A stretch of 64,000 nucleotides of DNA from Rhabditophanes sp. KR3021. Its lineage: Eukaryota > Nematoda > Chromadorea > Rhabditida > Alloionematidae. A model generated the notes under the pieces. It was given only the letters and a program-made list of their open reading frames with translations, had not been told where the DNA came from and did not search any database. Location: positions 6,386,001-6,450,000 of the forward strand of contig CAUJLY010000003.1 of assembly GCA_963281155.1 (NCBI GenBank), read 5' to 3'. A program made the position numbers and the translations under genes. Position 1 is the stretch's first letter, and the number at the start of each line of letters is the position of its first letter. Shown piece after piece: positions 14,298 to 54,548 of the stretch.

Positions 14298-16698
14298 ATG
14301 AAGTTTGTACTTTTATTATTGTTGAGTGTAGCACCATTTTTGTCTGCCAATGGAGACACTGATGGCACGGAATTCGTTTTGAGTTTTGCAAATGTTTTCA
14401 ACTCAAAGGCAGAATATAATCATCATATCGTTTATTATTCTAATGATAATGGTGTTTCTGTAATTGTTAACTGGAGATTTTTGTCTTTGGCAACTGGACA
14501 ATTTAAGACTGGATCAGTTACATTGCAGCCATACAGTTTGGGAAGAGTATGTTTATTTTAATTAATTAATGTTAATCTTTTTATAGACTGAGTTTAATTA
14601 TGCAGACATTCTCTGGACAAATTACGGAGGCTTCGGCCAAGTTTCAGATGTTCCAGACACACGTATCCTTGTAACTGCTAGTTCTCCAATCAAGCTTATT
14701 GGCCAATATTACTATCAAGGAAAATATCACGACAGCCATAATTTGGAAGATTTATATTTAGGTTAGTTTGACTGCACAGTGTCACAAGTGGGATTGTAAA
14801 ATCTTCCGTCCGGTGAGACGATGGTTCTGTGCTAGTTGGGGTAACGATGAAATATTGCATAGTTCAACGTAGGATGGGTGCGCCCATCTACTGCCGATAA
14901 CTTTATATATCGCTGAGTTTCTCTTTTTTAACTTTGCTACTTCTTTAAAAATATTTTTTATTGTATTTAAAATATTTGTTGATTGAATTGTATTTTTAGT
15001 TCCATCAATCAACGCTTGGGGTAAGAATTACAAAGTTCAATTGCCAGAGCCATCCGGTGGTCACTTTAGATTGATTCAGCTCTTACCATACAAACAAGAT
15101 GCCCAAGTCACTATCCAATTATACATCTCCGGAAAATTGCAAACTACAACTCAAATATCCTTAACTGCTGCTGCTGGAACAGATCAACACACAATTGTCG
15201 CAGAATATCATCCAGCCCTTATCAATTCTTCATGGATTATAACATCAGACGTAAATATCGGTGTTCTAGCTGCTTCTACCTGTGTTGATACCAGCAAAAG
15301 ATGTGACTACGTAGCCTACTCACCAATGCCTGTAGCTGCATGGGGTAAACTCAAACATACTGCTTGTCAATCCTTATCTTGATTTTATAGATGGAGTTCA
15401 CTCTAGTTCAGTGGTTGATCAACAGTTCGTACTGATCGAAAATACACATCAAATTTTTATCTATCCACCAGTAACTACTGCCAATCAAATTCCAATCACT
15501 GTTTCTTCTGAAAGCGGGCAGGTAATCAAAGGGAAAAGTTCAACTTTGACAGCTATCCAGTATTTCCCAGGTATTTATTGGAAAATAGAAAACGGATAAT
15601 TAAAAATTAGGTGGCAAAAAAAGCATAAAAGGGACAAAAATCTGATTAAAATTTAGTGGTATTTACATCTTTTAGTTGAAACATTTTTTCAACCAAAGCT
15701 GCCCAATCAATTTGGCATTAGTAGGTGTAAGGATGTAAACTTCTTTGATGGTACATTTTCTATGGTCGACGTCTTAGCTTGACTGCCAAAGTATTCAGTT
15801 AAAATATATTCTACATTTTCTCCCAATTGCTTCGAAGGTACTTTCATTTTCAAGTGTATTTGTAGATAGGGTACAACTGATGGCCGGTCATTTTAATTAG
15901 GAAAAAGAAGATAAAGATCAGGAGTTTTGATGGATCTTAGTAAGACTATTTTAACCAGAGTAATTGCCGTAAAGCATATTTGGTGGCTTAAATTATATTA
16001 ATATGTTCCACATTTCTGGCCAAAAAACATTTGTAAAACACATCTTTAGTCACAATATAAGGCAATTATGATTAATCCGAAAGATTCACTTATCAAAAAT
16101 GAACATAGTTTTGACTCTAAAGTTACTAAAAATATTATAAGTGCTATTATCTGACACAAGAACACTGGGAAGTTTAAAGAAATCCTAATTTGATACTAGG
16201 ATTATTTTACTTTTTTCTTGGTCTGCCATTTCAAATTATGTATATTCATGTTCTCTGACTGTTTTAGGAAATACACTCGAATTTGAAACTAAATCACCAG
16301 CATCTGGACTAGGAGTATCAAGACTATTAATTAATGGAGATCAATTGATCGGTAGTGATGCTGGAGGTTGCCTTATGAATGTTATACCTGTTTCAAGTTT
16401 TGTTACTGGAAGAACCTTCTTTGGAACCTATGGCACCAACAATTACATTGAAATTTATATCTTGGAAAAAGACATGTCCACATTGACTTTAAATAACCAA
16501 CCAATCGCCAGTTATAATGCCCATGTCCGTCCAATGGCAACAACTAACTCACTTTATGTTGGCATTATCGTTGACTTAGACAAAATTAACAAAGCACCTT
16601 ATTTGATCAATAGTACCAAGAAATATATCGCCTATTACGTTAACTTATGGGCTGGGCGTCAAGCTTGTTATGAACTTTCTTATAATGCCATACATTGA
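14298..16698 (+). CDS. Secreted IgGFc-binding-domain protein
   Basis: Five exons (14298-14546, 14587-14761, 15000-15344, 15391-15570, 16268-16698), all in phase, give about 459 aa. Residues 1-18 are a signal peptide (MKFVLLLLLSVAPFLSANG). The rest shows the repeated beta-rich pattern of the IgGFc_binding domain seen at the N-terminus of FCGBP and in many nematode secreted proteins: GTEFVLSF near the start, ITSDVNIGVLAAST, YVAYSPMPVAAWG and the late block SDAGGCLMNVIPVSSF. The family is extracellular and often mucus- or surface-associated; its ligands in nematodes are not known. Intron 2 (14762-14999) contains a structured tract, and intron 4 (697 nt) contains an antisense repeat copy. Both are listed separately. 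A poly(A) signal lies at 16702-16707. Confidence 0.88.
14766..14930. ncRNA. Candidate structured RNA inside an intron
   Basis: The core of intron 14762-14999 is much richer in G and C than the other introns. It contains a near-perfect hairpin at about 14870-14892 (GTAG-GATGGG, loop TGCG, CCCATC-TAC). Upstream is ACGATGAAA, which resembles a C box, and CTGA near 14915 resembles a D box, followed by a T run. That arrangement would fit an intron-encoded C/D-type snoRNA. TGCTAGTTGGGG and AGTTCAACG also loosely resemble pol III A and B boxes, so a tRNA-derived element is the alternative. The strand is uncertain. No known RNA family was recognised. Confidence 0.3.
15655..15862 (-). repeat. Copy 1 of a dispersed decayed coding element (intronic, antisense)
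   Basis: Inside intron 4 of the IgGFc gene, the minus strand reads VPSKQLGENV then ILTEYFGSQ, and after a frame shift DVDHRKCTIKEVYILTP then NAKLIGQL. The same order and spacing of motifs occurs in copies at about 22690-23385 and 53131-53935. This copy is the shortest and covers only the C-terminal motifs. It has an internal frameshift and stops. The encoded family was not recognised. Confidence 0.75.
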
Positions 16699-16792
16699 AG
16701 CAATAAAATATTATTATTTTTAGACATCCTTTTCAATTCAATTTTATTTTATACCTAAATAATTTAGTATTTAACAAAAACTAATTAAATAA

Positions 16793-17770
16793 TTAAATCC
16801 ACTTTTTGTCTTTTCTTTGTTCAAGTTCGTATTTCATGACCTTTAACTTGATGACATTTACTATTTCGTTAGCTGTCTTGTTTTGGCCATAATAATCGTG
16901 GAAATTACCTTCAGGATCCATTAAGTACATGATCACAGTGTGGTCAACAATATAATCATCATCAGCTGTCTTTGGGCCTTGTGAATGGTACACTCTGAAT
17001 GTTTTAGCAACCTTTTTGGTTTGTTCTTCAGTGCCAGTGAAGCCCTTTAATTTTGGGCTAAATTCACTGCAATAAGCCTTGACTCTTTCTCTTGTATCAC
17101 GGGCAGGATCAACAGATATAAATACAGGCTTGATAGAAACTTCTGGATTGTGTTCATTTATTGTGTCGACAACGGAAATCATCTTTTCGATTTCATCAGG
17201 ACAAATGTCTGGGCAATGAGTGAATCCAAAATACATCAAAACCCAGCTTCCTAATAAATCCTTTGAGCCTTCTAACTTTCCATCTGTATTCACTAATTCC
17301 CATTCACCACCAATTCTGGCTTTTCCAGCCATCAATTTCGTTTGTTTTTCTTGTTCTTCCATCTTTTGATTTCGAATGTACAGCAAAACTCCTACCAAAA
17401 TCGAACCCAATCCTAATGTTACTCCTGCTGTTTTCCAACCGAAAATTGAACTTCTTTCGTGGCTTTCCTTCTGCAATAAAAATTAGTATGAAAACTGTAT
17501 CAAATAAGTACAAAGATATTTTGACGTCAGTACAAAATAAACCCTGTCGTTTAATTCAAAACTTACCTCTCCTTGTTTCTTAAATCCCATAAACAGCGGA
17601 TCTTCCGCCGGTTTTTGACTAACATTGGCATCCTCTTTGTTTATATGCTTCTTAATGTCTTCAAAATCTATTTTAATTTCAGGATCATCAGGTTTTTTAG
17701 TAGAAAACCTTGAAATAAACTGGCAACTTTTTAGGGAAGCATTACTTCTTACTATTACTCTTGATAACAT
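16793..17770 (-). CDS. sco-1: SCO1-type mitochondrial copper chaperone
   Basis: Two exons on the minus strand (17770-17567 and 17470-16793) give 293 aa. The N-terminus is basic and Ser-rich with a presequence-like start (MLSRVIVRSNASLKS), as expected for mitochondrial import. One membrane segment follows (VTLGLGSILVGVLLYI, about residues 81-96), then the thioredoxin-like SCO domain. The copper ligands are visible: CPDIC at about residues 152-156 and the distal His in VDHTVIMYL at about residue 246, together with SVDPARDT. SCO1 delivers copper to the CuA site of cytochrome c oxidase from the inner membrane. The 3' end lies only about 95 nt from the convergent IgGFc gene. Confidence 0.95.
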
Positions 17771-17877
17771 ATTAATAGGTTTAAAAGTTTAAAATGGCTT
17801 TCATGTTAAACTTCGACAAGATAAATTTTGGTACATAATGTATTTTATTTGTTAAAAAAGTAAAACCGCAAAAAATT

Positions 17878-17949
17878 TGCCTTATGCTGGAATCGAACCA
17901 GCGACCTTCTGTTTACTAGACAGACGCTCTACCCCTGAGCCAATAAGGC
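17878..17949 (-). tRNA. tRNA-Thr (anticodon AGU)
   Basis: The minus strand folds into a full cloverleaf of 72 nt: acceptor stem GCCTTAT/ATAAGGC with discriminator A, D-arm GCTC...GAGC, anticodon stem TCTGT/ACAGA with loop CTAGTAA (anticodon AGT), and T-arm GCTGG-TTCGAAT-CCAGC. There is no intron. Bases outside the stems closely match nematode tRNA-Thr(AGU). A T6 run on the minus strand at about 17871-17876 serves as the pol III terminator. Confidence 0.97.
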
Positions 17950-20900
17950 GATACCTCATTTCTATCAATTTACTTGGCATAGATTTTAACATAACAAATG
18001 ACACCAAAGCAATGAAGGAACAACTAACTCATAAATAATCATAAAATAACGACTATTCAAGTCACGAAATGGCATTAACAGTTCGGAACATAATTTATTA
18101 CCATCTCGAACACCACAACATAAAGTAATAACAAAAGACATATTAAAAGACACTCATTATCGTGGACCATTATCGTCTCCAGAGAATAATATCATCTACT
18201 AATATAAATATTCATTCATTTTGACAAATCCTATTACCATCTTTATTATATCACTCCCTCTTTGCATAATTATCCTTATCATGCCACATCCTTAGGCTAA
18301 GTGTATTATCTCTGGCCCAAATATACTTAAAACTTTGCCGACTCCAGGCGTTCCATTTCCTTTAATTGTCTCAACTGAACTCACATTACTACTCTTCTCC
18401 AATACCAATTAACAGTAGTAAAAGTTGTGATGGACTTAATTTAAGTAACGGAAGTCCATTTAAAACAAACCATATGGGCTATTTACTAAAACTTTAAATA
18501 TTATTTTCTTTTACCTAATGCCACAATAATTATTCATTTATTATATCTTCTTGCCTAATGGTGTGCTTAAAACTTTAAATGCAAAACTTTAATATGGATA
18601 TTAGAAAAGTTTAGTGTCGATATTACATCAAAACAAACTTCAATTTTAAAAAGGAGTGGGCTATAGGATGACGATTTATTGCATCCTTTTGGTTACCTTT
18701 TAAGCATAAAACAAAATGTTATAAATTGATAGACTGTGCTGCTAACTAACTATATTTATGTCTTTATAAATTTAAACAAACTCCTTTTATGAGGCTTCTT
18801 GTAAACATACTATTTATATGCTATTTAGTCATTAGCAACCAGGTGATAAGTCACTCCAAGATGTACTCTATTTAAAAAGCATTAATTTATGATTTAAATG
18901 TCTTGTTAAATCAATCATAATCACTGCCATCTGTAACGAATTTATAACAATTTTAACAACTTAATTGGCCTCTTAGTGACACCTTTTGAATCAAAAATGA
19001 TACATAAGTGATGTATAGAAGTAAATTTATTTGTTCATTCATAATTTACTTTATTTTTGTTTATATGAGTCTATTTTAGTTTGTTGACATTTCACATAAT
19101 CCTTTAATTTGCCCACAAACTTAAACACTCTTTTGATAATTCAAAATTAATTATTAAATAGACTGTAGATGAGAGAAACCTTTTAACAAATTTAACAAAT
19201 AATACAAACATCCCCAAATTCGGTAAATGTTTAAAAATACCGACTCTATACCCCTAAACCATTACCTAATCACCCCTACATTTTGCGCATGCACACCACT
19301 TCCAAATTACTCTTCTATTGTACCAAATATTGTGTTATTCACCCAACCAAACCATTACTTTCTTTATCAACAAACCTTTCCTACAATTAGTACAATAATT
19401 TTAAATTAATTGCAATTGTTGCACTATTTTATGCTCAAAATCATCCCATTAATTCAACATTTGCCACTAGAAAATGAAAGTTGTTTATCATGTTGTTGAA
19501 TCTAGTGTTTCATATTTTTTTTGCTTATTTATTGAGTGATTAAAATCTTGGTTTTTCAAATTAACAAATCATTTTTTGCGGCATCATCTCTATACCCATT
19601 AAACTTCCTCCTCTTTTCGTGTTACTATTAACAACAACAATAACAAAAAATTTGTTTCAATTTATATATCTTACTTACATATTTTTACAATCTCTCTTTG
19701 AAGGGTTAGCTAAAACTAGTTAGAACTTTTCTGGGATATACATTTATTATTAAAATCATACTACCACACCATTTTTGACGTAACTTTATATAATTTCCAA
19801 ATTCTAGTTCATTTTAATATGTGTGTGTAAGTTAGTAAATGTAACAATAAAATTGTTCTTCAAACACCAACAAAACATATCAAAATCATATTTTACTAAA
19901 CCATAAAAAATGATACATCTTCTTCTTTCTTCTTCTTATTTATTTTGCCGTCTATACTCAAAACAATTCAAATTAAAAAGAAAACAAAAAAGTATATCAC
20001 TTTTGAGAGTATTGTTATAGACATTCTTTATCTCCCTATATACATTATACATAATATTTATTTATTATTTGATATAATACACATTTTATATAGATTTCCT
20101 TGATTAATGTGATAACTTTAATGTTGCAATACACTATTAATCATTTATCGCTACATGGAACTTTTTCTTGATAACAAATGCTATTTTACATTTCATGATT
20201 GTGTATTATTCAGGCCAAGATATGAGTTGTTTTTGATGTGGAAGTAGTAGTTTATATATATTATTATCATCTTCATTTACCCAAAATAATGTACATTTAT
20301 TAAAAGGAGAAGATATATTTTATCAGACAAAGTCAATCACACATTTATCTGTAGATACTTATTTAGTTATTCACATACAATACATTTATCCTTAATTGGC
20401 ATTCAACACCAACCAAGTAATTTGGAAGTGTCGGCATTTTACATTTTTTAATATCAACTTACAAAATTCATCCTTACGACTAAACTGGTACCGACAAAGA
20501 AACTGTTCGCCACTTCAACTTTGTCAAGACCACTTTCGTGACAACTTTGAGACTCTTCTTGATATTAATATCTGCACAATCTCTGTGTATGGTACATATA
20601 TTAAACATTAATTATTGCCAACTTATTTTTCTTATTTTCAACAAAAAAGAAACACATGCCCTTTTAAGACAAAACAAACTCACCAATTGAACCTCATCCC
20701 ATTACTTTGATGGACCACATTAAGCTGAATCTATCAAATCTTCAATATCTTAATCTTTATATCATGTCATCACAACCAAATTAGTCTTCTATTTTTACAA
20801 GTTACAATTTAGAGACCCCAAAACGTTCACACTTAGTCTCCGATTTCCTTTTATTTATCTAAACATACTCTTTATATACAAAACAAAGTAATTATACAAC

Positions 20901-22208
20901 CACTAATGTGGTCCCCTCTCTTCCTTGTCCTAATTCAGTTGAATCTTAATATTTCTACACCAAAATATGATTATAAAACGTATTTTGATAGGATAAATAT
21001 GTTAAAAGAAAGCATAAATTGTCAACGCTTCAATACACACTTTTTGAGACATAACAAGACTGTATACAATAACTTTACATTCAATTAATATAATGTAGAT
21101 GTATGTATAAATGAAACTGTCACTTTTAGCCAGCAATTTAAATTGTCTTTTGATATCAAACAATTACAGAGGAACAATAACAAACTTGGAAATAGTATTG
21201 TCTAGGACAAAACAACTCAGCATAAAAAAGTCTTGAACGCCATTTGTTTGTAATTACAATGTATGACCTCAATTATAGATGTATATTTATTTTTGATAAA
21301 AGACCCGTTACTTCTCCTTTTTTTGAATCAACATTATGTTTATTATTAGTAATAAGGGTTATTTGACACTTTTTGTAGACTCTCGTCCCAATAAACTTTA
21401 ATATCAAAGCTAATAACTCTTTTTATTTGCTCTGATCATATAAATATTATAAAAAGGCTGTTCAGCATAATTTTAAATCTGGCCAGTTCTAGGGACTAAA
21501 AAGTTGATTGTATTTCTTTTGAATCAAAAGTGACCAGACTTGAGTGCGAGGATTGTGTGACGATTTTCTGATCATTATCTCCCAATACCCATAAATGAAG
21601 CCTGTTTCGTGATAGATAGTCATTTCTGCCATCAAATCGTCTACACCTCTCTCCACCTTTACCCACAAACAATTATCTACTGGAAACACACCAAACGAGT
21701 GTTCATTCACTTGCCACATTATTTGTGATACCAACCCTCAGGTTAAAACCTATATCTCTCATTAATATTTGATTGCCAATATTTAGACAACCACCCTCAA
21801 CAAATACATCTACATACTCTTTTATATTTTTTTGTATAAACATTTTTATTCTCATTTCGCCACTATCTCAACCCCATCACCACATCCATCTCCTTAATAT
21901 TAAATTTATTATAGTACTACTACATTACTTTGGTTCTAAAATATTAATATCAACACATACAAATACGAAGTTGATAAAGGATAAGCTCTAACCATTTATT
22001 TGACATCATCAGACATTTAGTTGGTAGTGGTGTTGTTGAAGTTAATATTAAGGCCTATTGACGACAGCTACATACTTTATATGGCAATATAATTAGAAAG
22101 GATATATAGAGACTAAAAATTGTATATGCACAGATAAATTGTGTATCTACTTCAGCATCATTCCAAGTGTGTTACACACCTACCAATCAAAAGGGTCTAC
22201 TTGAGAGG
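17950..22208. other. Gene-poor region of about 4.2 kb
   Basis: Very AT-rich with no gene I could build. The only protein-like ORF is on the minus strand at 21489-21719, listed separately. The ORFs at 19227-19409, 20396-20611 and 20906-21088 have neither domains nor plausible splice sites. It could hold distal control sequences for the flanking genes or small RNA genes that I cannot recognise. Confidence 0.4.
21489..21719 (-). CDS. Orphan ORF or exon fragment, unrecognised
   Basis: From the ATG at 21719 the minus strand encodes 76 aa of protein-like composition, including PVDNCLWVKVERGVDD, HETGFIYGYWEIMIR and SSHNPRTQVW. The local base composition is less AT-rich than the surrounding desert, as in the window's real exons. 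No family was recognised and no partner exon was found, so it may be a relic of a gene or of a transposon. Low confidence. Confidence 0.3.
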   Translation of the reverse strand: MWQVNEHSFGVFPVDNCLWVKVERGVDDLMAEMTIYHETGFIYGYWEIMIRKSSHNPRTQVWSLLIQKKYNQLFSP

Positions 22209-24142
22209 ATGAAGTTCTTTATTTTATTGTTATTAGCTACTACGACAAATGGGTATCTGGAAGAAACGCCAACTAAATCAACTTCAGAAATGCTTGTTTC
22301 CGTAGGAGCAACGACTGCTCTGATGTGTGATCCTATTGTTGGAGCTAATGATAAAGTTAATATGACGGCGACGTGGTTTAAGAATGATGACCCTATTGCC
22401 AAAGTTACCAGGTTTGTTTTTAACTTTTGATAAGATCATAAACTTTTTTAGCAATTCAAATGTTATTTTATTTGACAGAACTATTAATTCAAAGCATTTG
22501 ATCCCACAAGTTGGTTTTCTTATTTTGACTAATATTACTGCAGGTAAGCTACTGCATTAGAACCAATAAATTATCTTTTATTTAGATGACCAAGGTTTTT
22601 ATCATTGTCAACGAGAAGACAACAAAGCAGAAGGTGAAACAATCCACCTCGTCATAGGTAAGAAACTATAAATAAGACTAACATTTGGGGGGAATTGCAT
22701 TTGTGAGTGCAAAGATTTTATCAATTAACAGTTTACCAACTAATTTGGCATTAGCTGGAGAGAGCTTGTATACTTCTTTGAGGCTGCATTTACCATGATC
22801 TACGTTTGTTACTTGGTTTCCAAAGTACTCAGCTAAAGCATACCCTAAGTTTTCTGCCAATTATTTCGTAGGTACAGCCATCTTGTCAACGATAGTTTGA
22901 TGCTTGGAATCGTCTTCGTTCAACGTGTCGTTGATTTCCTTGATCCGTTCTTCTTTCTTGGAGAGAACATGATTACCATTAACACGTGAGTTGTACTTAG
23001 AAGAGTGATGTTTCATCCTTTCGTGAAGATGTGGCTTTTTAGGATGAAGAGCAGATTCTCCTACCTAGTAAACGGCCTTGGTGAAATCTTCCAAAGTTCA
23101 TTCATTACAGGGCTTGTTGACCATTATCGGGTCTGTGCATTGAGTTGGTTCATGCCTGAACATGTCTTGAGAAGAGTTTCCATCGCATCAAAGTTTTTGC
23201 TGAATTCCTGTACTTCTTTGAATGATTGCTCACATTCCCTTTGTTGAGAATGTGTCGACAATCTTAAAAAACTAGACTGAGACTCCGCGACATCACTTAC
23301 AGCAAATTCCATCAAATCATAATTTTCCTCATGTTCTTTTAAGTCTTTCTTAAATAGGCATAATAAAATGAATAATAAAGATAATTTATTTAATCTGCAA
23401 AACAATAATTTACAACATAATAATTATAGCTTACATCGAACAATTTGACTCAAAAGAAAAGGAATTAGTTATGATACCAAAGAGGCCGTATCTAGGCAAT
23501 ACCATTAGAATTGACTGCCCATCGACGGATGCGTATCCTGCTCCAGCCGTTAAATGGCACAAAGTAAGTATCTCTAATAAAATAGACACTTGACTTTGAC
23601 TATAAAATAGACTATTTAAGTAACTTACTTTATTTTAGAATGGAATCGACCTCAATTTTAGCAATAACAGATACGAGGTGTTATCAAATGGTTCATTATT
23701 AATAAGAAGACTAACTTCCCGCGACATCGGTTTCTTCGAATGTATATTATCAAATTTTGCTGGCTACACAAAAGGAACAGCATTTGTAGATGCATATGGC
23801 GATGAAACAATCCAAAGACAAAGAATTAATAATCAAGTCCAGCAATTTTCTATCTTTTCAACTATCAAAACGTTGGATAAAGTTCAAATTAAACATGGTT
23901 TATTGTGGTTCAGTATAGTTTGTTTGTTAGGAAGTTGTTTCGTTTTGATTTATTTGCTGATGAATATATTTTGGACAAATCGATCTTTTAGAAACAAAGT
24001 GTCTCGTTTATTCGTAAGAATGCCGTGTGTTGGGGATAAGAGTTTTGGAGGTTATGGAAGATCTATCGTGCCAGCGCCTGATTTCGTGTATAGGAGGAAT
24101 AGAAATGAAAGTGCCTCTGTTTCGGATCCTTTAGTGGTGTAA
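22209..24142 (+). CDS. Two-immunoglobulin-domain transmembrane protein (ZIG-like)
   Basis: Five exons (22209-22411, 22479-22543, 22586-22657, 23430-23563, 23639-24142), all in phase, give 325 aa. A signal peptide (MKFFILLLLATTTNG) is followed by a first Ig domain (Cys in ALMCDPIVG, then ATWFKN and DDQGFYHCQRED) and a second (IRIDCPSTDAYPAPAVKWHKNG, then RDIGFFECILSNFAG). A membrane segment lies at about residues 245-270 (LLWFSIVCLLGSCFVLIYLL) before a basic cytoplasmic tail ending DPLVV, which could bind a PDZ domain. The size and layout resemble nematode zig-family neuronal surface proteins; orthology to a specific member is not claimed. Intron 3 is unusually long (772 nt) because it carries antisense repeat copy 2. 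A poly(A) signal lies at 24190-24195. Confidence 0.88.
22690..23385 (-). repeat. Copy 2 of the dispersed decayed coding element (intronic, antisense, longest preserved)
   Basis: Lies in intron 3 of the Ig gene, on the opposite strand. Two open pieces remain: 23124-23405 (KDLKEHEENYDLMEF ... RECEQSFKEVQEFSKNFDAM) and 22678-22860 (ENLGYALAEYFGNQV, NVDHGKCSLKEVYKLSP, NAKLVGKLLID). Between them, in shifted frames, are DFTKAVY, VGES and SKKEERIKEIND. The same segments in the same order occur in copy 3. It lacks introns of its own, which suggests reverse transcription of an mRNA or a transposon. The encoded protein is helical, charged and unrecognised. Confidence 0.75.
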
Positions 24143-24368
24143 GGTATTCTTTATGATGCAGGAATTTTATTTTTATGATCTCATTTATGAATAAAGTGTA
24201 TTTGTTTCAAAATTTTATTTTAAACAACAGGTCTAATTAAAAGGCAAGATTATAAATTAATATTTTATTTTGTTGATATAAGTTGAAGAGCACAAATGTT
24301 CTGAAGAAGGTAAAGTTATTAATTAAAGTGTCGTCAAACTTACGACTTTTGTTTGATGAGCTTCCCGA

Positions 24369-38363: not shown

Positions 38364-40141
38364 TGGACTGCACAATTGTTCAGAATGCTGCAAATTTTAT
38401 ACCAGTGTATGTACGTACTACATTGCAATACACGTTATTATACCAAAGTACACGGCTTTGCTCTTTCGTGAGAGAAACTCTAACCCAACCGATATGCAAC
38501 ACCCATCAAAACTAACGCAAAATGTTCAAGCTGTAAAATGTGCGAATGATGATCTTTCACAACTTTTGCTCGAAATCCACCATGTGAGCAAAATGAGCTT
38601 TTTAACTCTGACGCCAATTCTTTTAAAAAAGATATAATATTTTACTGCAACAATTTTGATTAATTGATAAGATCTATTTATAAATAACAAGCAAATATAC
38701 TTACTTCATTTACACCAACACTTTTGTTTATTAAACAACTTTGGCAAATTGATAAGATCAATTGATTCGAATAAACCAAAATCACAACTCAACAATTTAC
38801 AATTTCATGACCTTTTGGTCGATCTCAACGCAACCTGCGACTAATTTGGAATGATCATTTACAAAATATTATATGTACAATTATACTATTATAAAATTAT
38901 ACTTCTGCCTTTAATTAAAAAACACACACACGTCGTCTTATAAATATTTTTGACAAACTGTTTATATTTTTACATAAAGTTTACATATATAATTTACAAA
39001 AATAAATAGATCGTTCGTTGTATTGTGCTAACAGATTAAATGATTCTCACATTAAGTATAATATAAATAGTTATCAGCATAACACATTCCACCGAACATT
39101 TCATAATAACAAATCATTATCATCATCACCATTACCATTCCTTTACAACCACCATTGCCCAACATATTTCTAACCAACAACCTACAACTACTAAACAATC
39201 ATTTTAAACATGGTGATGATAAGCAAATCGGAATACTCGTTAAGAACTTTTTGAAGTAGCTTAATGTTTCTATCCTACCCACAATTCACAAACTATAACC
39301 CTAAATATTATAAAAATATATACTTATACTCAGTATTATACAACAATCGTTCATTTCCAATATAGATAGAAATACATGTCTATCCCTTGCCCCTTCAACT
39401 TCAATAGTATAACAGTTGCTTTCAGATAAGCTCTTTTTTGCGAAGTTGAACAAAAATATATGTAGAGAAAGATTGACGAATTATGGTTGTTATATGTGTG
39501 CAATAATCACAATACCCCTTTATTTTACCTGTTCACACCATTTTTATTTGATTATTAGCATTAATTTGTGTATCCTCTTCTTAGTAAAAATGTAACTTAA
39601 TATCCTTCATTTTATCACTAGGCATAACATTTTTATATTCACTCACATTTCATAGTACATTCATATTCATTGTTACCTAATTTTATCCAGCCATTCATTA
39701 AAATTAACATTTAATACTTTTTTACTACTTATCTTCAAATAGAAATTTAATACTAGAGATATCAAAACACTGCTCTTATCTATCTTTTTACTATTGACAC
39801 TTTCATATATCGAAAACATTAAGGCAATTGACTGGTAAATCAAATATTAGTTTGCAAAAAAGATTATTTATAGTTGGATGTGCCATTGATAAATTTGTTT
39901 ATAAATAAATATTCAATGATAACTAGCTTTAGATATTCGTAATATTACTTGAAGAAGTTGGATGATTATATTAATTACATAGATAATCAATCACTTTAGT
40001 AATTTGTTTGATAATAACATAAACAATCATATTAATTAATTTGTTTGATAATTACATAAATAGTCACCTAGCATTTTCTTTAATAATTACATCAATAAAC
40101 ATCGACAATTTCAGGTGGTTTGGTTGCGCAAAAGAAAATAA
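38364..40141. other. Intergenic region of about 1.8 kb
   Basis: AT-rich. The ORF at 38350-38637 overlaps the end of the preceding gene and looks random. An AATTTCAG acceptor ends at 40114, 27 nt before the next ATG, and may be a trans-splice site. Nothing else was seen. Confidence 0.4.
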
Positions 40142-45316: not shown

Positions 45317-45679
45317 ATGCGTTTTATTATCTTCATCAGTTTTGCTATTTTGGTAACTGTCTTTTGCGAAGATTTAGTTTTGGGGTGTAAGAATGGGAAA
45401 TGCTTTGCTGGATTTCAGTGTGAAAAGGAAGCATGTGTAAAATGTACTGACAAAGCTGATAATTGTTCTGATCTTAAAGCAGCTTGTACAATTACAGCCT
45501 ACAAAAAGGAAATGGATCAGTGTAAAAAAACGTGTGGCTTTTGTGAAGATCCAACTCCATCAATTGATTGCAAAGATACCGAAAAAAATTGTGCCGAACT
45601 TGCTAAATATTGCAAAGATCCAAAATATGAAGCCATGCTTTCCAAAGTTTGCAAAAAAACATGTTCTATTTGCACATAA
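45317..45679 (+). CDS. Secreted protein with two ShK-type domains
   Basis: A single exon of 120 aa. A signal peptide (MRFIIFISFAILVTVFCE) is followed by a short Cys-rich segment and two six-cysteine ShKT domains. Domain 1 runs from CTDKADNCSDLK to CKKTCGFC and domain 2 from CKDTEKNCAELAKYC to CKKTCSIC. ShKT domains are very abundant in nematode secreted proteins, where most have unknown roles. They are named after a sea-anemone potassium-channel blocker, but channel activity cannot be inferred. The in-frame TTG just upstream is not used; the ATG opens directly into the signal peptide. A poly(A) signal lies at 45720-45725. Confidence 0.9.
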   Translation: MRFIIFISFAILVTVFCEDLVLGCKNGKCFAGFQCEKEACVKCTDKADNCSDLKAACTITAYKKEMDQCKKTCGFCEDPTPSIDCKDTEKNCAELAKYCKDPKYEAMLSKVCKKTCSICT

Positions 45680-46052
45680 TTAATTTAACCATCTTCCATT
45701 AATTTAATAATAATCCAATAATAAAGTTCACGTCAATTGAAATATTTCATCCTCTTTCTTTTTAATCTAAATGTAGTTTTTATAGAGCCAATATCACATG
45801 GTAAAAATATTAATGTAAATTGGAAACAGTTTAAATAACAAGCAATATAATTTTGTACCAAATCAACATTTTATTCAAGTCTAAGAAACAACAAAACGTA
45901 GATAATTAATAATAAGAGTTGCATCTTTTCAGACTTTTCAAATGCAATTGAAAATCAGTAATATGTTTGTAATGAATGTAAACATCACAAAAACTAGCTC
46001 TTTTGTTAATAACAAGATTTAAGAAAGGCCGTTTAAGTTCACTGCGTGGGAA
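45680..46052. other. Convergent intergenic region
   Basis: Contains the ShK gene poly(A) signal (45720-45725) and the presumed 3' end of the small minus-strand gene. Nothing else was seen. Confidence 0.4.
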
Positions 46053-46247
46053 CTACACCTTATTGACGGGGCTTTGCTTCACGAATAGTTTGTTCTTCGA
46101 CTGTAATTGGATGTTTGCAAAGACCTGTAATTGAATGAATAGATTATTATAAATATTAGTCAGGATAATTAAACGTACTCTATCCTTGAATTTAAAGGCT
46201 TTTTTAAGTAGACCTGTTTCTTGGGTGACAGCTGGATTTTCGTTCAT
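46053..46247 (-). CDS. Very small hypothetical protein (46 aa)
   Basis: Two exons on the minus strand (46247-46179 and 46124-46053) separated by a 54-nt intron with GTACGT and TTACAG ends. Exon 1 reads MNENPAVTQETGLLKKAF and is protein-like. In exon 2 the phase-correct frame gives VFANIQLQSKNKLFVKQ, while another frame gives the equally protein-like KHPITVEEQTIREAKPRQ. The correct reading is therefore unsure, and a slightly different splice may be used. No family was recognised. Confidence 0.4.
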   Translation of the reverse strand: MNENPAVTQETGLLKKAFKFKDRVRLIILTNIYNNLFIQLQVFANIQLQSKNKLFVKQSPVNKV

Positions 46248-46748
46248 CTTTAATAATAGTTTAGAAGCTCAAACTGTGGATATATACATATTGAAAGACC
46301 CCCTAATATAGTTTCACGGGAAAATTTACTTTTGCATAATTTCATTTTTTTTAAATTACAAATATATTTATATTTTCGCTCAATATATAAAAGCCAAGTT
46401 TTATCCTGGTTAACTTCATATTAATATAATAAATGACCAAATAGTAAAAACAAATGAAATTGATATAATAATTTGCTTGGAATATTCATCATCCGAAATA
46501 CTTATATTAAATGTTTAGTTGTTTATGTTTGTGCCAAAAACGAAGTAACAAGATTCAAACTACAAGTACCGGATCTTTATCAAAAATTTGTATGTAGAGT
46601 AAACTTTTATGATTGTAATTAAAAACTGATAAAATGCATATGTAATATAATACTATTTAAAGAACTTATAAAGTATCGAGCATTACATGAATATTAATAA
46701 ACTAGGATGCATATTAAAATTTAAATTGTTACATCGAATTTTATGCAG
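46248..46748. other. Intergenic region before the orphan exon
   Basis: AT-rich. I searched here for upstream exons of the IgGFc-like fragment at 46749 and found no convincing ones. Confidence 0.35.
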
Positions 46749-46999
46749 ATTCAAACGGAGTCAATCCTGCTTTGATAAAAGTTGATGGAGTTAGATTAAG
46801 TAATTACGAGTTTGATATGAATCATATGTCTTATTTTAAGAAAACATTTGGTCATTTTATTCTACCTTTACCTGGATATGGACTCCATACATTTGAAAAT
46901 GAAGGTAATTATGTTTTGTATGTTATATGTAAGAATGCCAATGGACCGCACAACGCAGCTGGATATTTGAGTGGATTTAATCAAAGGAAACAACAATAA
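46749..46999 (+). pseudogene. Orphan last exon of an IgGFc-binding-domain gene (probable relic)
   Basis: An acceptor TTTTATGCAG ends at 46748 and is followed by an open exon to a stop at 46999. It reads NPALIKVDGVRLSNYEF, FKKTFGHFILPLPGYGLHTF and NYVLYVICKNANGPHNAAGY. This matches the closing part of IgGFc_binding domains (L-x-x-Y, then G-x-H-T-x-E, then Y-V-x-G-x) and is comparable to the end of the gene at 14298-16698. No start exon is visible upstream, so it looks like a truncated duplicate. It could still be the end of a gene with distant exons. The frame is intact. Confidence 0.5.
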
Positions 47000-47356
47000 A
47001 TAGTCTCATACTTAATATATTGTAAAAAGCACATAAATTAAAATCAAGCGTTTATTATAGCTACTTATTATTCAATAGACAAAACTCTTCTACTTTTTGA
47101 TACCACCACAAACAATTTGTCTCAAGTATGTAACTCACAAAGACAACCTAACAATTAAGCCAAATCATCCCACACACCAAAGGAACATTTTAGCCACAAA
47201 TATAATAATGTTAGAATTTGTTTGTTCCTTCACCTAAAAGCAATAATTATAAAAGTGTGCAGTTACACTAATTTAATTTAACCAAACCTTTACCCCATGA
47301 CTACAAACAAGCCTATAAATATAAAATATTTGGAACAATTTTTATCTCAATTTTAA
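47000..47356. other. Intergenic region
   Basis: AT-rich upstream region of the 7TM receptor gene. Nothing specific was seen. Confidence 0.4.
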
Positions 47357-48419
47357 ATGAATACTTTTCATGATAAATTCATGTTCATCGGCGGTATTAC
47401 CGGATGTACCCTAAATCTAATAGCCTTTTTAATAATGAGTATTTATCCGACTAGCAATTATGATAAATTTAAATTTGTTCTGAAATATTTGAGGTTATTA
47501 GATGGAGGTGGAGCCTTTATGCTTGGTGTTATGATACAGGGGCAATTTGTCCCAGGTCTAAATTTTGCTACTAGTCATGGAGTTTGTCAAAGACTTAATA
47601 ATGAATTATGTTCAAAGATTATCATTGCTAGTTGCATTAATGTTACAATTATTGTAATTGGAGGAGCCGCTTTTATTAATTTGATGAGGTAGGCAAATTA
47701 AACTAAAGTTTAGTCTGACTTAATTTTAGGTATAACGTATTTTGTAGAAAAGCTGACTTATTAACCACATCCATTTATGACAAAATCATATTTTTATGTG
47801 TTTTTGTTATTGGTCCCATTGCCGTCTTTGCTACCTGTTATGAATTTCAAGTTTATAAGGGAAGAGATATTTTAGGCTTTCAATTAGATCCTTCAGTAAG
47901 TGAATGTTGTAATAATTTAAATTTATTTTACTTAAGGAATATGAAGATTATAAGATCTTTTTTACACCGGAATATACTTTATATGAAATTCCAATAAATT
48001 CCGACCTAAATGTCTTTTCATATGCAGTAATTTTCATGGTGGTAACAAGTGTAATCATTTTTTTAACTGGAATTTATTATTACCTTCGCATCGAATGGAG
48101 TCTCAAGCAAGCTAGAAAAGAAGCTCAAATAGATACTGCAAGTAAAATAACAACAGTTATTTATCATCTTCGTTTCCAAAATGTATGTCTAATTGTGTTT
48201 TGTTTTGCTCCAATAATGACACCAATGCTGCTAATTGTGTTCAATGTTCCGAGAATTCTCAAACCACTAACCTCAAATTGTTTTCTTTTCATCATGTCTT
48301 ACTTTATCTTTATATCATTCTTTTCAATTTATCATTTTTATAAGAATGAAATTAAAAAACATTGCAATAGAGGGTCTAAAGTATTACCTTATACTAATCA
48401 AACTAATAATAATTCATAA
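47357..48419 (+). CDS. Seven-transmembrane chemoreceptor-like GPCR
   Basis: Three exons (47357-47688, 47730-47895, 47937-48419), with introns of 41 nt each, give 326 aa. Seven hydrophobic segments are countable: FIGGITGCTLNLIAFLIMSI, LLDGGGAFMLGVMIQG, IIASCINVTIIVIGGAAFI, IIFLCVFVIGPIAVFATC, VIFMVVTSVIIFLTGIYYYL, VCLIVFCFAPIMTPMLLIVF, FLFIMSYFIFISFFSIYHF. A cytoplasmic tail of about 25 residues follows. The length and absence of a signal peptide fit nematode chemoreceptor superfamilies (Str/Srd-type). I cannot place it in one subfamily. These receptors usually act in sensory cilia. Confidence 0.8.
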
Positions 48420-48704
48420 ATAATATCTTGTAATAAATTTAACAATTCCTCACAACATGTTTTTGTTTAAAAAATATACTTGAAGTTTATAATTATTTAA
48501 TGACAAAATTTATAAGTGACTATAAACTAATTTAAAGCAAGACTTTAAACCGGATATCTTTTTTACATGTCCTAGTCCAGTCTATTAGAATCTAATTATA
48601 TACACTAAAATGAACTAATAATATGTCCCTCAACTAAATAAAAATAAGTGTAACGCCATTTCAAAGCCAAACAAATATTTTATCATTCTAAAACATATTT
48701 AAAA

Positions 48705-48797
48705 ATGACTTCCAATTTCTCAAGCTACCCAATCCACAATTTCATAGTGGTATATGGATCAATCCTAGCATTCATCCTATGTTTCACCAGCATATAA
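48705..48797 (+). pseudogene. Truncated receptor-like start (30 codons)
   Basis: ATG at 48705 opens a frame MTSNFSSYPIHNFIVVYGSI, then LAFILCFTSI, then a stop. It looks like the N-terminus and first membrane segment of another 7TM receptor. It stops exactly where the GC-rich island begins. This fits a receptor gene cut off by an insertion or rearrangement, which is inference. It is too short to be a confident gene. Confidence 0.3.
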
Positions 48798-48973
48798 TTT
48801 TATCCTTCTTAATCTTCTGATCCTTGACATCGGACTCGCTGCCGGCACACTTCCGCTTTCGAATTGACCTCCTTAGCTGCGATGCGCCACTATCGACAGC
48901 TTCGGAAGCCTCTTCCTGAGAAACGCCGTTCTGAGGAGTTGGCGCGGGGAACACAATGTCCTTCTATGTCCTT
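48797..48973 (-). other. GC-rich island with an antisense open frame
   Basis: About 160 nt of strikingly GC-rich sequence in an AT-rich genome. On the minus strand an acceptor-like ACATAG is followed by an open frame: DIVFPAPTPQNGVSQEEA, SEAVDSGASQLRRSIRKRK, ESDVKDQKIKKDK, then a stop near 48790. The codons use G and C at third positions, unlike every other gene in the window. It may be a captured exon, a foreign insertion or a transposon fragment. No family was recognised. Confidence 0.45.
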
Positions 48974-49098
48974 TGCAGCTTACACATATTAATATAAATT
49001 ACATATTATTCAAATAAATAAGCTTTTATTTCGTCACTATATAAACGCTGATAATAAATAGAAGAACAATCACGCAATAAATAAAATAGAGTATACAT

Positions 49099-52005
49099 TT
49101 AAATAAATGCCATTTTTCTTGGAGCTTCTCCTGAATATTTATTGAAGGCCGGATATTCAGCTGCTTTGGGTGCGATTGTAGAGAAATAAAATGAAGGTTG
49201 TTTCGGAGCTTGTGGTTTGACGTAGGTATCCTCTTCTCTTGGCTTAATCCCATCTCTCATGGTTACGGGAACAGGGTGAGGCGTTTCAGTTTGGTCGTTG
49301 TGTGGTAGTTCAGTTGTTGAGGGAGCTGCTGGGGCGATTGATGGGCTGCTGGTTACAACTGAGTTGATTGCGGAGAATTCTTGATGAGGTGTTTCGATGG
49401 TTGTGAATGAGACTTCGCGGAACTTTTCGGGCTGAGGTGGAGCGGTTTGGTAGGTTTTAGTTTGTTCTACTTTGGTGTCAGCTCCTGGAGCTTGGGGTAG
49501 TGCGGTAACAGCTGGAGCAAGTACTAATGGTGGGAGTGTGGCGATAGTAACGTCGGAATCAACTTTGGTATTTACTTTTGGGGCTTCGGTGGCAAAAACT
49601 GCTACTATTGGAGCTTCTGTGGCTATAACTTCAACTTTGGGAGCTTCTGTGGCTACAACTTCAACTTTGGGAGCTTCAGTAGCTAAAACTTCAACCTTTG
49701 GAGCTTCGGTAGCTAAAACTTCAACCTTTGGAGCTTCGGTAGCTAAAACTTCAACCTTTGGAGCTTCGGTAGCTAATACTTCAACTTTTGGGGCTTCAGT
49801 AGCAATTACTTCGACTTGTGGAGCTCCGGTGGCTACATAAACTTCAACCTTTGGAGCTTCGGTAGCTAATACTTCAGCCTTTGGAGCTTCAGTTGCTACA
49901 ACTTCAGCTTTTGGAGCTTCAGTCACAATAACATTTGCCACCTTTGGAGCCTCAGTAACAACAAATTCAACTTTTTCAACCTTAGGACCTTCAGCATAAC
50001 CAGTTGGTGCATGAGCGATGGGAACCTCTACCTTAGCTGCTGGTGCCTCAGTTGGAACTTGCGTATTCATCAAGACCAAAGATGGAAGAGTAGTTTGAGC
50101 GACTTCCTCAGCAAGTGGTGCTGGTGTAACAACTGGAGCAACACTTGGAACGGATGTAACAAGCGGAGCAGCACTTGGAATAGAAGTAACAGGTACGGAT
50201 GCGGCTGGAACTTCAGAAGCCACATTCTTTGGGGCTTCAGTTGCTACGATTTCAGCTTTTGGAGCTTCGGTAGCAATGACTTCAACTTGTGGGGCTCCGG
50301 TGGTTACATAAACTTCGGCTTTGACTTGTGGAGCTCCGGTGGCTACATAAGCTTCAGCTTTTGGAGCTTCAGTGGCAACAATCTCTACTTTTGGAGCTTC
50401 AGTGGCAACAATCTCTACTTTTGGAGCTTCAGTGGCAGCAACTTCGACTTTTGGAGCTTCAGTGGCAGCAACTTCGACTTTAGGAGCTTCAGTGGCAGCA
50501 ACTTCGACTTTAGGAGCTTCAGTGGCAGCAACTTCGACTTTAGGAGCTTCAACTTTTGGAATAATTTCCTCCCCATAACCTTGATTAGTTGCGGGTGTAA
50601 CACTTTCTAGTTGTTCTGATGGTTGAGTCGTTGGCAATGGAACAACTGGGAATGTAGCTTCTGGAAGAGGTTGAGAAGCAGTTGGGGTAGGAACATTTGG
50701 TACGGAAGTTTCAGAAATTGCAGGAACAGATGCCTCGCCATATCCTTGACTTGCAGCTGGTGTAACGTTCTCTGGGGTTGAAATCGGTGTTTCAGCAACT
50801 ACTGGAGCAGGTGTAGCTTCATTTGGTGCTTCTGTTGCAACTACTTCGCTTGGTGGGCCAGAAGTATAAGGAAGGCCAGGATAAGCTCCGAGATTTGAGG
50901 TTCTTGGTGTGCAAGGGCAATATCCTGCATCTTTTCTAAAAAACTTTTTAACTTGTCGTTCCTTTTGTTTACATACCCAGTTTCAGCGTCAGCTCCAGGA
51001 GCTCCAGCTTCCCCGTCGATTCCGGGTGTTCCAGGTTTTCCAATGATACCGGGCTCACCTGGCGAACCGTCAATTGGTTTTCCAGCTTCACCATTCTTTG
51101 CATCAGCTCCAGGAGCTCCCTTTTCACCAGCAGGCCCGGCAGGTCCTGGTAAGTTCTTAATAACATCAGCAGCTCTACCAGCCAATCCCGGAGCTCCTAT
51201 TGGACCCTAGAAAAATTGTTATTTGTGATTTAAATAGTTACGTACATTATTTCCTTTAGCTCCTAAATCGCCATAGAGTCCTTGAGGTCCTGGATGGCCA
51301 TCATTTCCTGGTTTTCCAGCAGGCCCAGCAACACCATCGTCTCCCTTTTCCCCTTGCTTTCCAAACATTCCAGGGAAGCCCTTAATTTTACAGATAAAAG
51401 TTAATCCAAATAAATAAACATACAGGTGGTCCTGGAGCACAAGGTTCGCAAGAAAATACAGGAGCTTCATAAACTTCAGCCTTTGGTGTAATTCCATCAA
51501 CGCCATCAACTCCATCGATACCGTTATTTCCATCAAACCCATCATTTCCTTTGTCTCCTGGCGGGCCAGCTGGACATTCCTCTTGGTTCTTAACTTCAGA
51601 TTCCACAGTTGCAGTTTCGACATTTGCGTCATCAGGTTGGGTTTTGTAGGATTGAGTAGTAGTAACTGTTTCTGGATTAGGTTTGTAAGCACTACCTGTA
51701 GTAGCAACAACCTCGCCTTCATCGTAACTTTTGGCGGCTTCTCTCTTGATACGTGTAGTTAAGGGATCCTTTTTCATCTTCATCATTACATTCCAAGATT
51801 GATTAGAAATGACCTACAAATAAGATTAAATAAATTTACTATTTGTATATTTGCTTACCTTCATTTCCTCGATGTCAAATCTAGCCGAATCATTAAAATT
51901 GTCAATGTCATTGAACAAACAAATAATAAGACCAATACTCCCAAGAGTGATAATAGCAGAAGCGGAAACCAATGTAGTTAAAATGACTTTTCCAGTTGTA
52001 ACCAT
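49099..52005 (-). CDS. Giant cuticle-type collagen with a long Ala-Thr-Glu-Ala-Pro repeat tail
   Basis: Five exons on the minus strand (52005-51859, 51813-51424, 51380-51246, 51206-50977, 50935-49099), all in phase, give 912 aa. The N-terminal 300 residues are an ordinary cuticle collagen. They comprise a signal-anchor (ILTTLVSASAIITLGSIGLI), a SWNVMM block, a furin-type site TRIKREA, Cys-rich CPAGPPGDKG, Gly-X-Y helices and the closing motif AGYCPCTPRTS near residue 305. Instead of ending there, the protein continues for about 600 aa. Residues about 425-755 hold dozens of 8- to 10-residue repeats of the type ATEAPKVEV, flanked by other Pro/Thr/Val-rich sequence. The tail ends KYSGEAPRKMAFI. 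It is probably an extracellular cuticle component with an extended, possibly cross-linked or glycosylated tail; the tail's function is unknown. Confidence 0.92.
49570..50560 (-). repeat. Coding tandem repeats (ATEAPKVEV units) in the collagen tail
   Basis: Two blocks (about 50560-50228 and 49945-49570) of 24- to 30-nt units, encoding variations of V-A-T-E-A-P-K-V-E-V/I/L. Neighbouring units are nearly identical at DNA level, which indicates recent expansion or homogenisation. They are separated by a non-repeat Pro/Val/Ser-rich linker. The two blocks share variant units with G-A-P-Q (TGAPQVEV). Confidence 0.95.
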
Positions 52006-52390
52006 TGTTGTTTTGTGATTTAATAATTGTAAAGATTTTTCTTTTATATGAAATTGGAAGATTAAGAGTATTGATAAAAATATTAAAAAATCAAGATCTC
52101 TTCATAATCCGATTTTTTTAATTGCAAAAAACGAGACCTTTATGGATCATTAAGTAGATTTTTCTAAGATATCACCTTTTTGTCTATCTTTTGTATGTTT
52201 TAAATATTATTTGAAGACCATTAAAAGAGATGTAAAAACTTTATCTAAGAATATTTTTAATACACGTATTCTCAACGTTTCTACATAGTAAGTCATCAAA
52301 TAGACAGACATTTGGTTTGTTTAATTAGTAAAAATTTATTCAAATTAAGTTAATATACAGCGGCTAAATTCAACTAACAAATATAAAGAT
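52006..52390. other. Intergenic region
   Basis: Between the collagen start and the 3' end of the aminotransferase-like gene on the same strand. It contains the collagen TATA box. Nothing else was seen. Confidence 0.45.
52042..52048 (-). promoter_or_regulatory. TATA box of the large collagen gene
   Basis: TATAAAA on the minus strand, 37-43 nt before the ATG at 52005. The spacing implies a short 5' leader. Confidence 0.55.
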
Positions 52391-54548
52391 CTAAGTTTGA
52401 AAGATACGATAAAACTCCATCATATAATTGCACAACTTCTGAACCTCTTCTAATGTATGAGAATTAACAATTGTAACAAGTATATGAATTTCTTTGACTG
52501 ATTCGTGCGGAGTAATTAGTCCATAAATACTCCTTCTTTCAGCTCCTTTCAAGAAAAAAGGCTCTAGCCTTGGATTTCCTTCTTTATTAGGTATAATAAA
52601 TTGAATTGAATGCTCCGAACGCCAAGGTTTGTCTATTATATACAAATAGAAAGGAAATGTATCATCCAGCACATCATAAATCAGCGCTACTTTCCTTTTG
52701 TTTTCCTCAAATATATTTTGCAAACCTTTTTCCTCAATCCAGTCTATCATTAAGCTAGTCATATATAAATTCCACACACTTGGCGTATTAAAAACATGCG
52801 GACTCGAAAATGCGTAATTTCTATAATCAAAAACTGCTGGGATATCTTTAATAGTCTTCAGTTTTAAGAGATCATTTCTTATAATTACTAGACATAGACC
52901 CGCTATGCCTAGATTATTTTGCGTTTCTGAAACTATTAATGCGTGGTTTTCTATATTTACTGGTCGTGATAATAAAGTCCCAGACAGATCTGCTACTATA
53001 ATTTCATTTGGTGGAAGTTCCATTTCAGAAGCATCTAAACCTGTATTGCGTTGAGAATTAGTAATTGTTGTGTGACTTTTAAATATGTGTACTGTTAATT
53101 TTATTATGAACCTACTGGAGTTTACTTAACATGACCGCAAAGAGAAAACAAGAAAAAATAAAGAGACAACAACCTGGTGATAATTAGGACTCTACTTCAA
53201 AGATTTATTAGACAACTCGGAAGTACGTCATGTAATAAAGGAGCCATCAGTGCTACTATTTAAGAAACAGATGGATTCACTTGCGAATATGTTTTATGAA
53301 CAACAAGCAATTGAAAGAACGTAAATGTAATGGCCATCCGATAAAAAATCCTTGCAAGTTGTGTTATGGAATTCAGTCCAATTTGGAGGCTTGCCAACTC
53401 ATAATTAAGTTAGAGGATGTGAAGAGTTGTTCAAGCATTTAATGAAAAATGTGTCGCTGTAGAAACTTTGTTAGGATATGGCCATACATCAAGCAACTTG
53501 ATGCCATAAACCTTGTCATTTCTACTTGTTCTTAGACCAAGAAACATCAATGAACCCTTGAATACTTGGATTTTGATTGAGTTTAACAAAGCCACTTATT
53601 ATGTAGGAGAATCAGAGCCTGCTTCAAAAATTTCACACCTCTACACTAAAATAAACCAACATTTTTCCCGATACAACTTTCACGTTCGTTCAAAGAAGGA
53701 ATAAAGGATGAAGGAATCAATGACGACACAAGGGCCAGATGATTTTAAGTGCCAAACTATTGCTGTCAAAATGATTGTTCCTACTAAAGAATTGGGAGAG
53801 AATGTCAAATAGGTTCTAACAGAGTACTTTGGTGACCAAGTGAAAATGTCGACCATGGGAAGTATATGACAGAGGAAGTCTAAAAGCTGTCTCCTGAGAA
53901 TACCAAATTGGTGGTCAGCTTTTGATTGAAATAATATTTGAACTCAAAGATGCTATTACCACTAAATTTGAGTCATATTTTTAATAGTCTATTTTATATA
54001 TCTTGCTCCTTCAATAAACGCGTCTCACCTGTTACGGCATCTGCAGCTACATAGAAGAAATAGGAGGAATTGGGTCGAAGTTTCAATTCATTTAGACTGG
54101 GAATATTTGTGTATGGTTGAATATCGGGGTTTACTACGTAAGGTGTAAAATATTTGCAGGCTGCAGCATAAGCTGCTTCTGAGGAGTAGCCGGTCATTAA
54201 ATAATTTGCTGAGATGGTTCCTTTGATAAGCCTTCCTAGATTTAAAGCTATGGCTTCATATTGTGTTTCAATGCAACCAGGCATAAACAACAATGTGTAA
54301 TTATTTGGTATTTTCAATAAGTTCGTAATTTTTTCTTCGAGTCTCTTGGTAAAATTTATGAATTCTACGGAATGGTGATCAACTTCTATAAAAAGATTTT
54401 TACTAATTAAATAAGACAAACAATTACCTAAAACACTAATTCCTGTATCTTCAAAATCAACCATCTCCTGTTGAGCCCGTCTTAACACCGTTTCCGGTAT
54501 TTTGGAAGGTCCTCCTGTAAAATTAATTGTTCCCCGTCTTGGAGGCAT
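52391..54548 (-). CDS. Phosphoserine aminotransferase-like protein lacking the PLP lysine (probable pseudoenzyme)
   Basis: Three exons on the minus strand (54548-54428, 54385-54029, 53034-52391) give 373 aa, the length of PSAT. The fold order of PSAT is intact: INFTGGPSKIPETVLRRAQQ, FEDTGISVLEVDHHSVEF, LPPNEIIVADLSGTLLSRPV, NNLGIAGLCLVIIRNDLL, DYRNYAFSSPHVFNTPS and a C-terminal EEVQKLCNYM. PSAT converts 3-phosphohydroxypyruvate to phosphoserine with PLP. Here the Schiff-base lysine of the conserved A-Q-K-N motif is Asn (ETQNNLG), and the Gly-rich phosphate motif (GGGSTQF in active enzymes) reads PGCIETQYEA. The Arg of SHRS is also replaced (DHHS). Reading frames and splice sites are intact, so it is likely expressed without this activity. 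Intron 2 (994 nt) carries antisense repeat copy 3. Confidence 0.88.
53131..53935 (+). repeat. Copy 3 of the dispersed decayed coding element (intronic, antisense to its host)
   Basis: Lies in intron 2 of the aminotransferase-like gene, on the opposite strand. In shifting frames it reads TAKRKQEKIKRQQPG, YFKDLLDNSEVRHVIKEPSV, FKKQMDSLANMFYEQQA, VAVETLL, EFNKATYYVGES, YNFHVRSKKE, VPTKELGENVK, LTEYFGDQV, ENVDHGKYMTEEV and KLSPENTKLVV. The order matches copy 2 and extends further at the N-terminus. Several stops and frameshifts are present. The 63-codon ORF at 53513-53704 is its best open piece. Confidence 0.75.

Follow-up and report, generated by a model that had tools for sequence, protein, structure and literature searches.

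Introners are introns of similar sequence that occur across unrelated genes, the similarity starting at the splice sites (Gozashti et al. 2022, PMC9860276). According to the parts of that survey at hand, the splice sites of some introner families come partly from a target duplication, introners are said to arise from nonautonomous elements, and among animals and land plants they are reported in only two taxonomic groups; the word "nematode" is absent from these parts. Shintrons, described in 2025, are spliceosomal homing introns of mirusviruses with endonuclease genes, those of the GIY-YIG type included, and the sections at hand of the paper describing them call the association of a spliceosomal intron with an endonuclease previously unobserved (PMC12768974). 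In this work, three introns with antisense coding remnants were analysed in a 64,000-nucleotide stretch of the small free-living nematode Rhabditophanes sp. KR3021 (assembly GCA_963281155.1, contig CAUJLY010000003.1, positions 6,386,001 to 6,450,000, forward strand; hereafter the window), together with their relatives in the genome. The element to which these introns belong works like an introner, has the introner features examined and differs in encoding a candidate nuclease. Our observations make it probable that these are introners encoding their own nuclease, by which AG|G exon sites would be cut, the duplicated target then contributing to the two splice sites.

Like introners, the worm elements are similar introns in unrelated genes, with ends at splice sites and with a duplication overlapping these sites, the latter being a feature of a subset of introner families. 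Unlike the surveyed introners, the worm introns encode a protein of their own, on the antisense strand. They share with shintrons a GT-AG intron of spliceosomal type holding a predicted GIY-YIG endonuclease gene (PF22945 or PF01541 above the cut-off in several copies). Whereas shintrons are, in the parts of the source at hand, elements of viral genomes with a preference for particular genes (PMC12768974), the worm copies lie in an animal genome, in unrelated genes and in antisense orientation, and have zinc-finger/GIY-YIG modules and target duplications. The combination of introner, antisense orientation and endonuclease was not found in the open-licence literature.

Comparison of the window with itself aligned introns 2 and 3 at 62% identity over 708 columns (E 3.7e-53), introns 2 and 1 at 71% over 215 columns (E 3.1e-31) and introns 1 and 3 at 72% over 231 columns (E 1.0e-34). 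Protein pieces of three repeat families, designated A (the family of the window), B and C, matched just these three places in the window (tblastn, E <= 1e-3). An initial annotation, made from the sequence alone, had noticed the same series of motifs in three introns of unrelated genes and had taken it for one repeated and decayed coding element, intronic and in every case antisense to its host; the DNA alignments and the tblastn remnants bear this out, orientation included (Table 1). All three introns have GT and AG ends and the exons on both sides join in frame, giving TLTAIQYFP[G]NTLEFETKS, EGETIHLVI[A]YIEQFDSKE and FYVAADAVT[D]ASEMELPPN for copies 1, 2 and 3, respectively. Homology of copy 2 to other copies begins at positions 2-6 and ends near position 759 of its 772, and a motif typical of the right end of the element lies 13 nucleotides (nt) upstream of the acceptor AG. 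In copy 3 this motif (score 38) lies about 15 nt upstream of the acceptor, and the final approximately 190 bases of copy 1 are covered by fewer than two other copies. The right-end evidence is weaker in copies 1 and 3 than in copy 2; of the three right ends, that of copy 1 is the least secure.

Table 1. Intron copies and coding remnants in the window, and host genes in which exon continuity was examined.
Feature	Position or locus	Strand	Evidence
Copy 1 intron	15571..16267	host +	GT donor 15571, AG 16267; in-frame exon join, homology to copies 2 and 3
Copy 1 antisense GIY-YIG gene remnant	15649..15868	-	tblastn E 5.5e-15
Copy 2 intron, made of element	22658..23429	host +	in-frame exon join; homology to other copies
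Copy 2 antisense GIY-YIG gene remnant	22684..23133	-	tblastn E 1.1e-46
Copy 3 intron, made of element	53035..54028	host -	donor 54028, acceptor 53035; in-frame exon join
Copy 3 antisense GIY-YIG/zinc-finger gene remnant	53184..53923	+	tblastn E 7.3e-29
Mortalin	L044		joined exons match across junction
STK11	L036		joined exons match; one extra residue
DDX41	L022		joined exons match across junction
Dynein-2 heavy chain (DYNC2H1)	L060		joined exons match; junction within ATP-binding loop GPSGSGKS

A genome-wide search, proposed in the initial annotation as a check, was carried out over 44,845,725 bases in six contigs. One protein encoded there agrees with a UniRef entry of Rhabditophanes sp. KR3021 (100% identity over 98%), in strong support of R. 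diutinus KR3021 as the source. Copy 2, searched as DNA, gave 50 rows, which merged to at least 40 places (40 of 54 candidates scored). Protein searches gave at least 151 matches for family A (best 150 of 453 first-look candidates scored), at least 156 for family B (best 150 of 590 candidates scored) and 65 for family C (all 111 candidates scored). A total in the hundreds is an estimate only, because weak rows may overlap between families, and the close reading reported below covers a minority of copies. The N-terminal 150-residue piece of family A had just 15 matches in the genome; this part therefore seems to be lost from many copies. Families A and B were strongly depleted on contig C6 (11.2 megabases), with 8 of 150 rows for family A against 37.5 expected and 3 of 137 places for family B against 34.2 expected. 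Chr6, to which C6 may correspond, is described as syntenic to the X chromosome of Strongyloides ratti in the part of the source at hand (PMC10676810).

Read in the direction of the host gene, the copies have in common a left end near the donor and a right end near the acceptor. The right-end motif is conserved and resembles a branch point (ATYAYTAAYA.., composed by eye), and it lies within about 20 nt of the AG. The codon model behind the fitted splice models was trained on 93 frames, 24,320 codons in total. The right-end motif is present in 35 of 41 family A elements; among these 35, acceptors picked blind to the element fell -8 to 25 nt from the motif in 16, where 0.8 would be expected from random YAG, and elsewhere in the other 19, several of these because the blind model took a later exon. 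With assigned junctions, searched for close to the motif and in part corrected by hand, which favours the outcome, the acceptor was at the right end of the element in 26 of 31 copies. Moreover, both ends were retained in copies with internal deletions. The at least 40 merged DNA places represent similar introns in many unrelated genes, among the hosts being mortalin, STK11, DDX41 and DYNC2H1; in these four, selected because they were recognised by eye and the only ones tried, the joined exons matched known proteins across the junction (Table 1). As far as can be judged from sequence, the element is the intron itself. The initial annotation, which places the element inside introns, is right on the location but appears incomplete.

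A further sign of how the copies arose was found when the end of the upstream exon was compared with the end of the intron. At offsets -10 to -3 there were 105 matches, against 80.0 +/- 6.4 when pairs were shuffled between copies, the observed value being reached in none of 5000 shuffles; this was computed for 31 copies, ten of the 41 being omitted (L018, L019, L023, L024, L027, L030, L038, L040, L043 and W1). Offsets +1 to +5 showed no significant excess in the same 31 copies (72 versus 67.1, p 0.11). Repeats of at least 7 nt with at most one mismatch were present in 6 of 32 copies, L024 having been added back for this count, namely in L011, L016, L025, L026, L034 and L046 (shuffled mean 1.22, maximum 5 in 2000). 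The duplication is clear in L034 (CTTTAATTTCAG), in L016 (CAATTTAAG) and in L026, and the family B copy in dynein-2 has CCGGTTCAG|G at both sides. In the clear cases the left-hand repeated letters belong to a coding exon, an indication that the element entered exons. Target duplication is seen in these sequences statistically, and clearly in some copies. L017, read on the host strand and with junctions assigned by hand, is best taken as a GC-AG intron with both splice sites inside a repeated AGGCTA.

Orientation was assessed by scoring antisense-host and sense-host models for 58 elements, some of which share a host gene; five elements at locus ends were dropped, and duplicate loci as well as the LEM-3-like L049 and L050 were omitted. 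The antisense model was higher in 51 elements, by a margin above 10 in 48, and the sense model was higher by more than 10 in seven; the antisense bias noticed in the window recurs among these elements. One of these seven, the family A element at L036, has STK11 as its host and is actually antisense. L027 and L030 are taken to be antisense, their right exon being misplaced; L064 is probably a similar case, and the three that remain, L020 B, L036 B and L041 B, being short remnants, may have either orientation. A 26-mer from the left end of family B had 24 genome matches and its reversed control none; a listed nuclease frame was present within 1.5 kilobases (kb) of 10 of these 24 sites, in all ten antisense and on the expected side. 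An element that itself makes the intron accounts better for the antisense bias, provided that splice signals lie on one of its strands alone.

The left end of family B has a further feature. In 8 of the 13 left ends examined (L060, L061, L064, L065, L029, L036, L055 and L063), a sequence resembling CTAAT..TTTTAG|GTAA lies about 45 nt past the exon; it was not found in the left ends of L059, L062, L035, L040 and L041. Such a series, branch point then acceptor then donor, is the layout of recursive splice points. Judging from this layout, the family B left end may provide a strong donor some way from the exon.

The initial annotation could not match the encoded protein to any family. This no longer holds, since a 153-residue C-terminal stretch of family A (from L027) matched the LEM-3-like GIY-YIG domain PF22945 at 34.6 bits (cut-off 27). 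It was the only one of eight family A pieces scanned to do so, the other seven giving a weak match or none; window copies 1, 2 and 3 match the L027 stretch at 38.5, 140.8 and 95.8 bits, respectively. A second Pfam scan of nine pieces placed PF22945 above the same cut-off in L055 (36.0 bits), L056 (28.2) and L057 (28.9) and below it in L059 (25.2) and L058 (24.4), and four of the nine, including a 60-residue piece of copy 2, were unmatched. Six aligned sequences, drawn from families A and B and from two LEM-3-like loci, showed no variation in the columns Y, YxG, R, H and E. In family C, locus L066 has an intact frame of 509 codons, antisense within an intron that spans 52-2073. The host exons join as GHMDDC-YTFFMALEEESKSARV, and the host is presumably a ryanodine receptor gene, as recognised by eye rather than by homology search. 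This frame matches PF01541 in two stretches (25.4 bits, cut-off 22.6) and has weak finger matches; in our reading, its predicted order is zinc finger, GIY-YIG, zinc finger, GIY-YIG. Shorter open stretches occur in L055, L056, L059 and L062. By these signatures, the element protein is a predicted GIY-YIG endonuclease with C2H2-type fingers. Predicted structure models reached a predicted local distance difference test score (pLDDT) of 53 and 68; a structure search with them gave no match at E <= 0.001 and, at a second look, weak rows only, for UPF0213 and Slx1.

The ratio of nonsynonymous to synonymous substitution rates (dN/dS) between family A fragments had a median of 0.26 (292 finite values of 342 pairs), the ratio being somewhat lowered since the fragments were selected by protein similarity, and the pairs being non-independent. 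Third codon positions were the most divergent in 327 of the 342 pairs. This codon-position signal argues that the protein was under selection during the spread of the copies.

The host nuclease LEM-3/ANKLE1 (LEM-3 acts in the processing of DNA bridges) has the nuclease domain PF22945 in common with the element. The element proteins differ from it in having C2H2-type fingers and no ankyrin part in the portions examined, and a host gene with PF22945 and, by reading, ankyrin-like repeats is present at L048. In this host LEM-3 locus, a family C remnant (L048:3205-3414) lies antisense near a gene named glutamate dehydrogenase-like by reading; it stands at the locus edge and was left uncounted. Two near-identical LEM-3-like GIY-YIG stretches were found at L049 (C1:2498294) and L050 (C6:4280), one of them near a contig end. 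More GIY-YIG frames, with the motif YIGKGTG or YIGRGTG, are present at L051, L052 and L053, the last being open for 379 codons.

From these observations we infer splicing in vivo, activity of the nuclease, insertion driven by it and a manner of copying and joining as follows. An element of about 0.3-2 kb would insert at an AG|G-like site of a coding exon, and its encoded zinc-finger/GIY-YIG nuclease would make a staggered cut at new AG|G-like exon sites. A copy of the element would then be joined into the cut, either by end joining of a released element or by repair synthesis with another copy as template. The pieces scanned revealed no transposase, integrase or reverse transcriptase. Fill-in would duplicate the target over about 7-12 nt (7-15 measured, one mismatch allowed). 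The left duplicate would close with the exonic AG, the donor coming next, while the right one would end in an AG used as the 3' splice site, so that the AG is supplied by the target and the branch-point-like motif by the right end of the element. The whole insert could then be removed as a GT-AG intron, the insertion being hidden by splicing, and the copies surviving in genes would be those antisense to the host because only one strand has splice signals.

Part of this evidence can also be accommodated by an ordinary mobile element that entered pre-existing introns, selection having purged the sense and exonic copies. Intronic transposable elements are well known to lie preferentially antisense, 47-168 nt separate the element end from the acceptor in 5 of 31 copies, and L055 and window copy 1 have space for an older intron. 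The blind acceptors found at the element end in 16 of 35 cases against 0.8 expected are difficult to reconcile with this account, as is the repetition of upstream coding exon at the 3' end of the intron in L016, L034, L026, L025 and L046, because insertion inside an old intron gives no such repeat; we consider it unlikely, although it is the most serious of the alternatives. Exact splice-site boundaries are also predicted if the introns multiply through reverse splicing into other messenger RNAs followed by reverse transcription, the nuclease gene being a passenger or a homing aid. Reverse splicing makes no target duplications, whereas these were seen both statistically and in single copies, which leaves this route with a small share of the probability.

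Two further explanations start from the coding remnants. GIY-YIG endonucleases are borne by Penelope-like retroelements, so the worm element, which resembles them as a mobile element with such a nuclease, could be a truncated member combining GIY-YIG and reverse transcriptase. A reverse transcriptase domain was not found by Pfam in the 509-codon frame or in 17 pieces, family A being scanned in part, and this origin appears very improbable. The initial annotation had suggested a prolific source of processed pseudogenes, that is, a single highly expressed parent gene, in keeping with the many decayed coding copies, none of which was seen with introns of its own. However, a run of at least eight T, at the position expected for an antisense poly(A), was present in the first 60 nt of none of 31 introns, both ends are kept in internally deleted copies, and the protein constraint between copies (median dN/dS 0.26) is less expected of dead retrocopies. 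Processed pseudogenes are the least credible of the explanations weighed and can hardly be maintained. Two other classes were examined and gained no support. An inverted-repeat cut-and-paste transposon is not indicated by comparison of the first with the reverse-complemented last 120 nt of 31 family A introns (mean score 10.8, shuffled 9.8), and no signature of a group I or II self-splicing intron was detected in the window, L066, L060 or L055 (Rfam, gathering scores). The same Rfam scan located a transfer RNA at 17878-17949 (-) and the small nucleolar RNA SNORD36 at 38541-38616 (+) in the window.

For the introner with its own nuclease, a more far-reaching proposal can be made, to which we give about even chances. 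The families would form an autonomous class of animal introner, in which a tandem zinc-finger/GIY-YIG nuclease, encoded antisense in the spliceosomal intron, cuts coding exons at proto-splice (AG|G) sites, the duplication from the staggered cut supplies both splice sites, and hundreds of introns have been seeded in one nematode lineage, some copies perhaps being still mobile; family B would add a recursive-splicing-like start (TTTTAG|GTAAG). The origin of new spliceosomal introns is a long-standing open question, and the parts at hand of a nematode intron survey report that source sequences were not found for the few gains in Caenorhabditis (PMC9169325). The worm introns described here appear to hold a candidate mover of their own, open frames included, which would make intron birth open to study in an animal. 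If true, endonuclease-bearing spliceosomal introns, known from mirusviruses, would be placed in an animal. As Rhabditophanes KR3021 is cultured on bacteria, according to the part of the source at hand (PMC10676810), the proposed cutting step, target rule and splicing rule would be open to direct testing in this worm.

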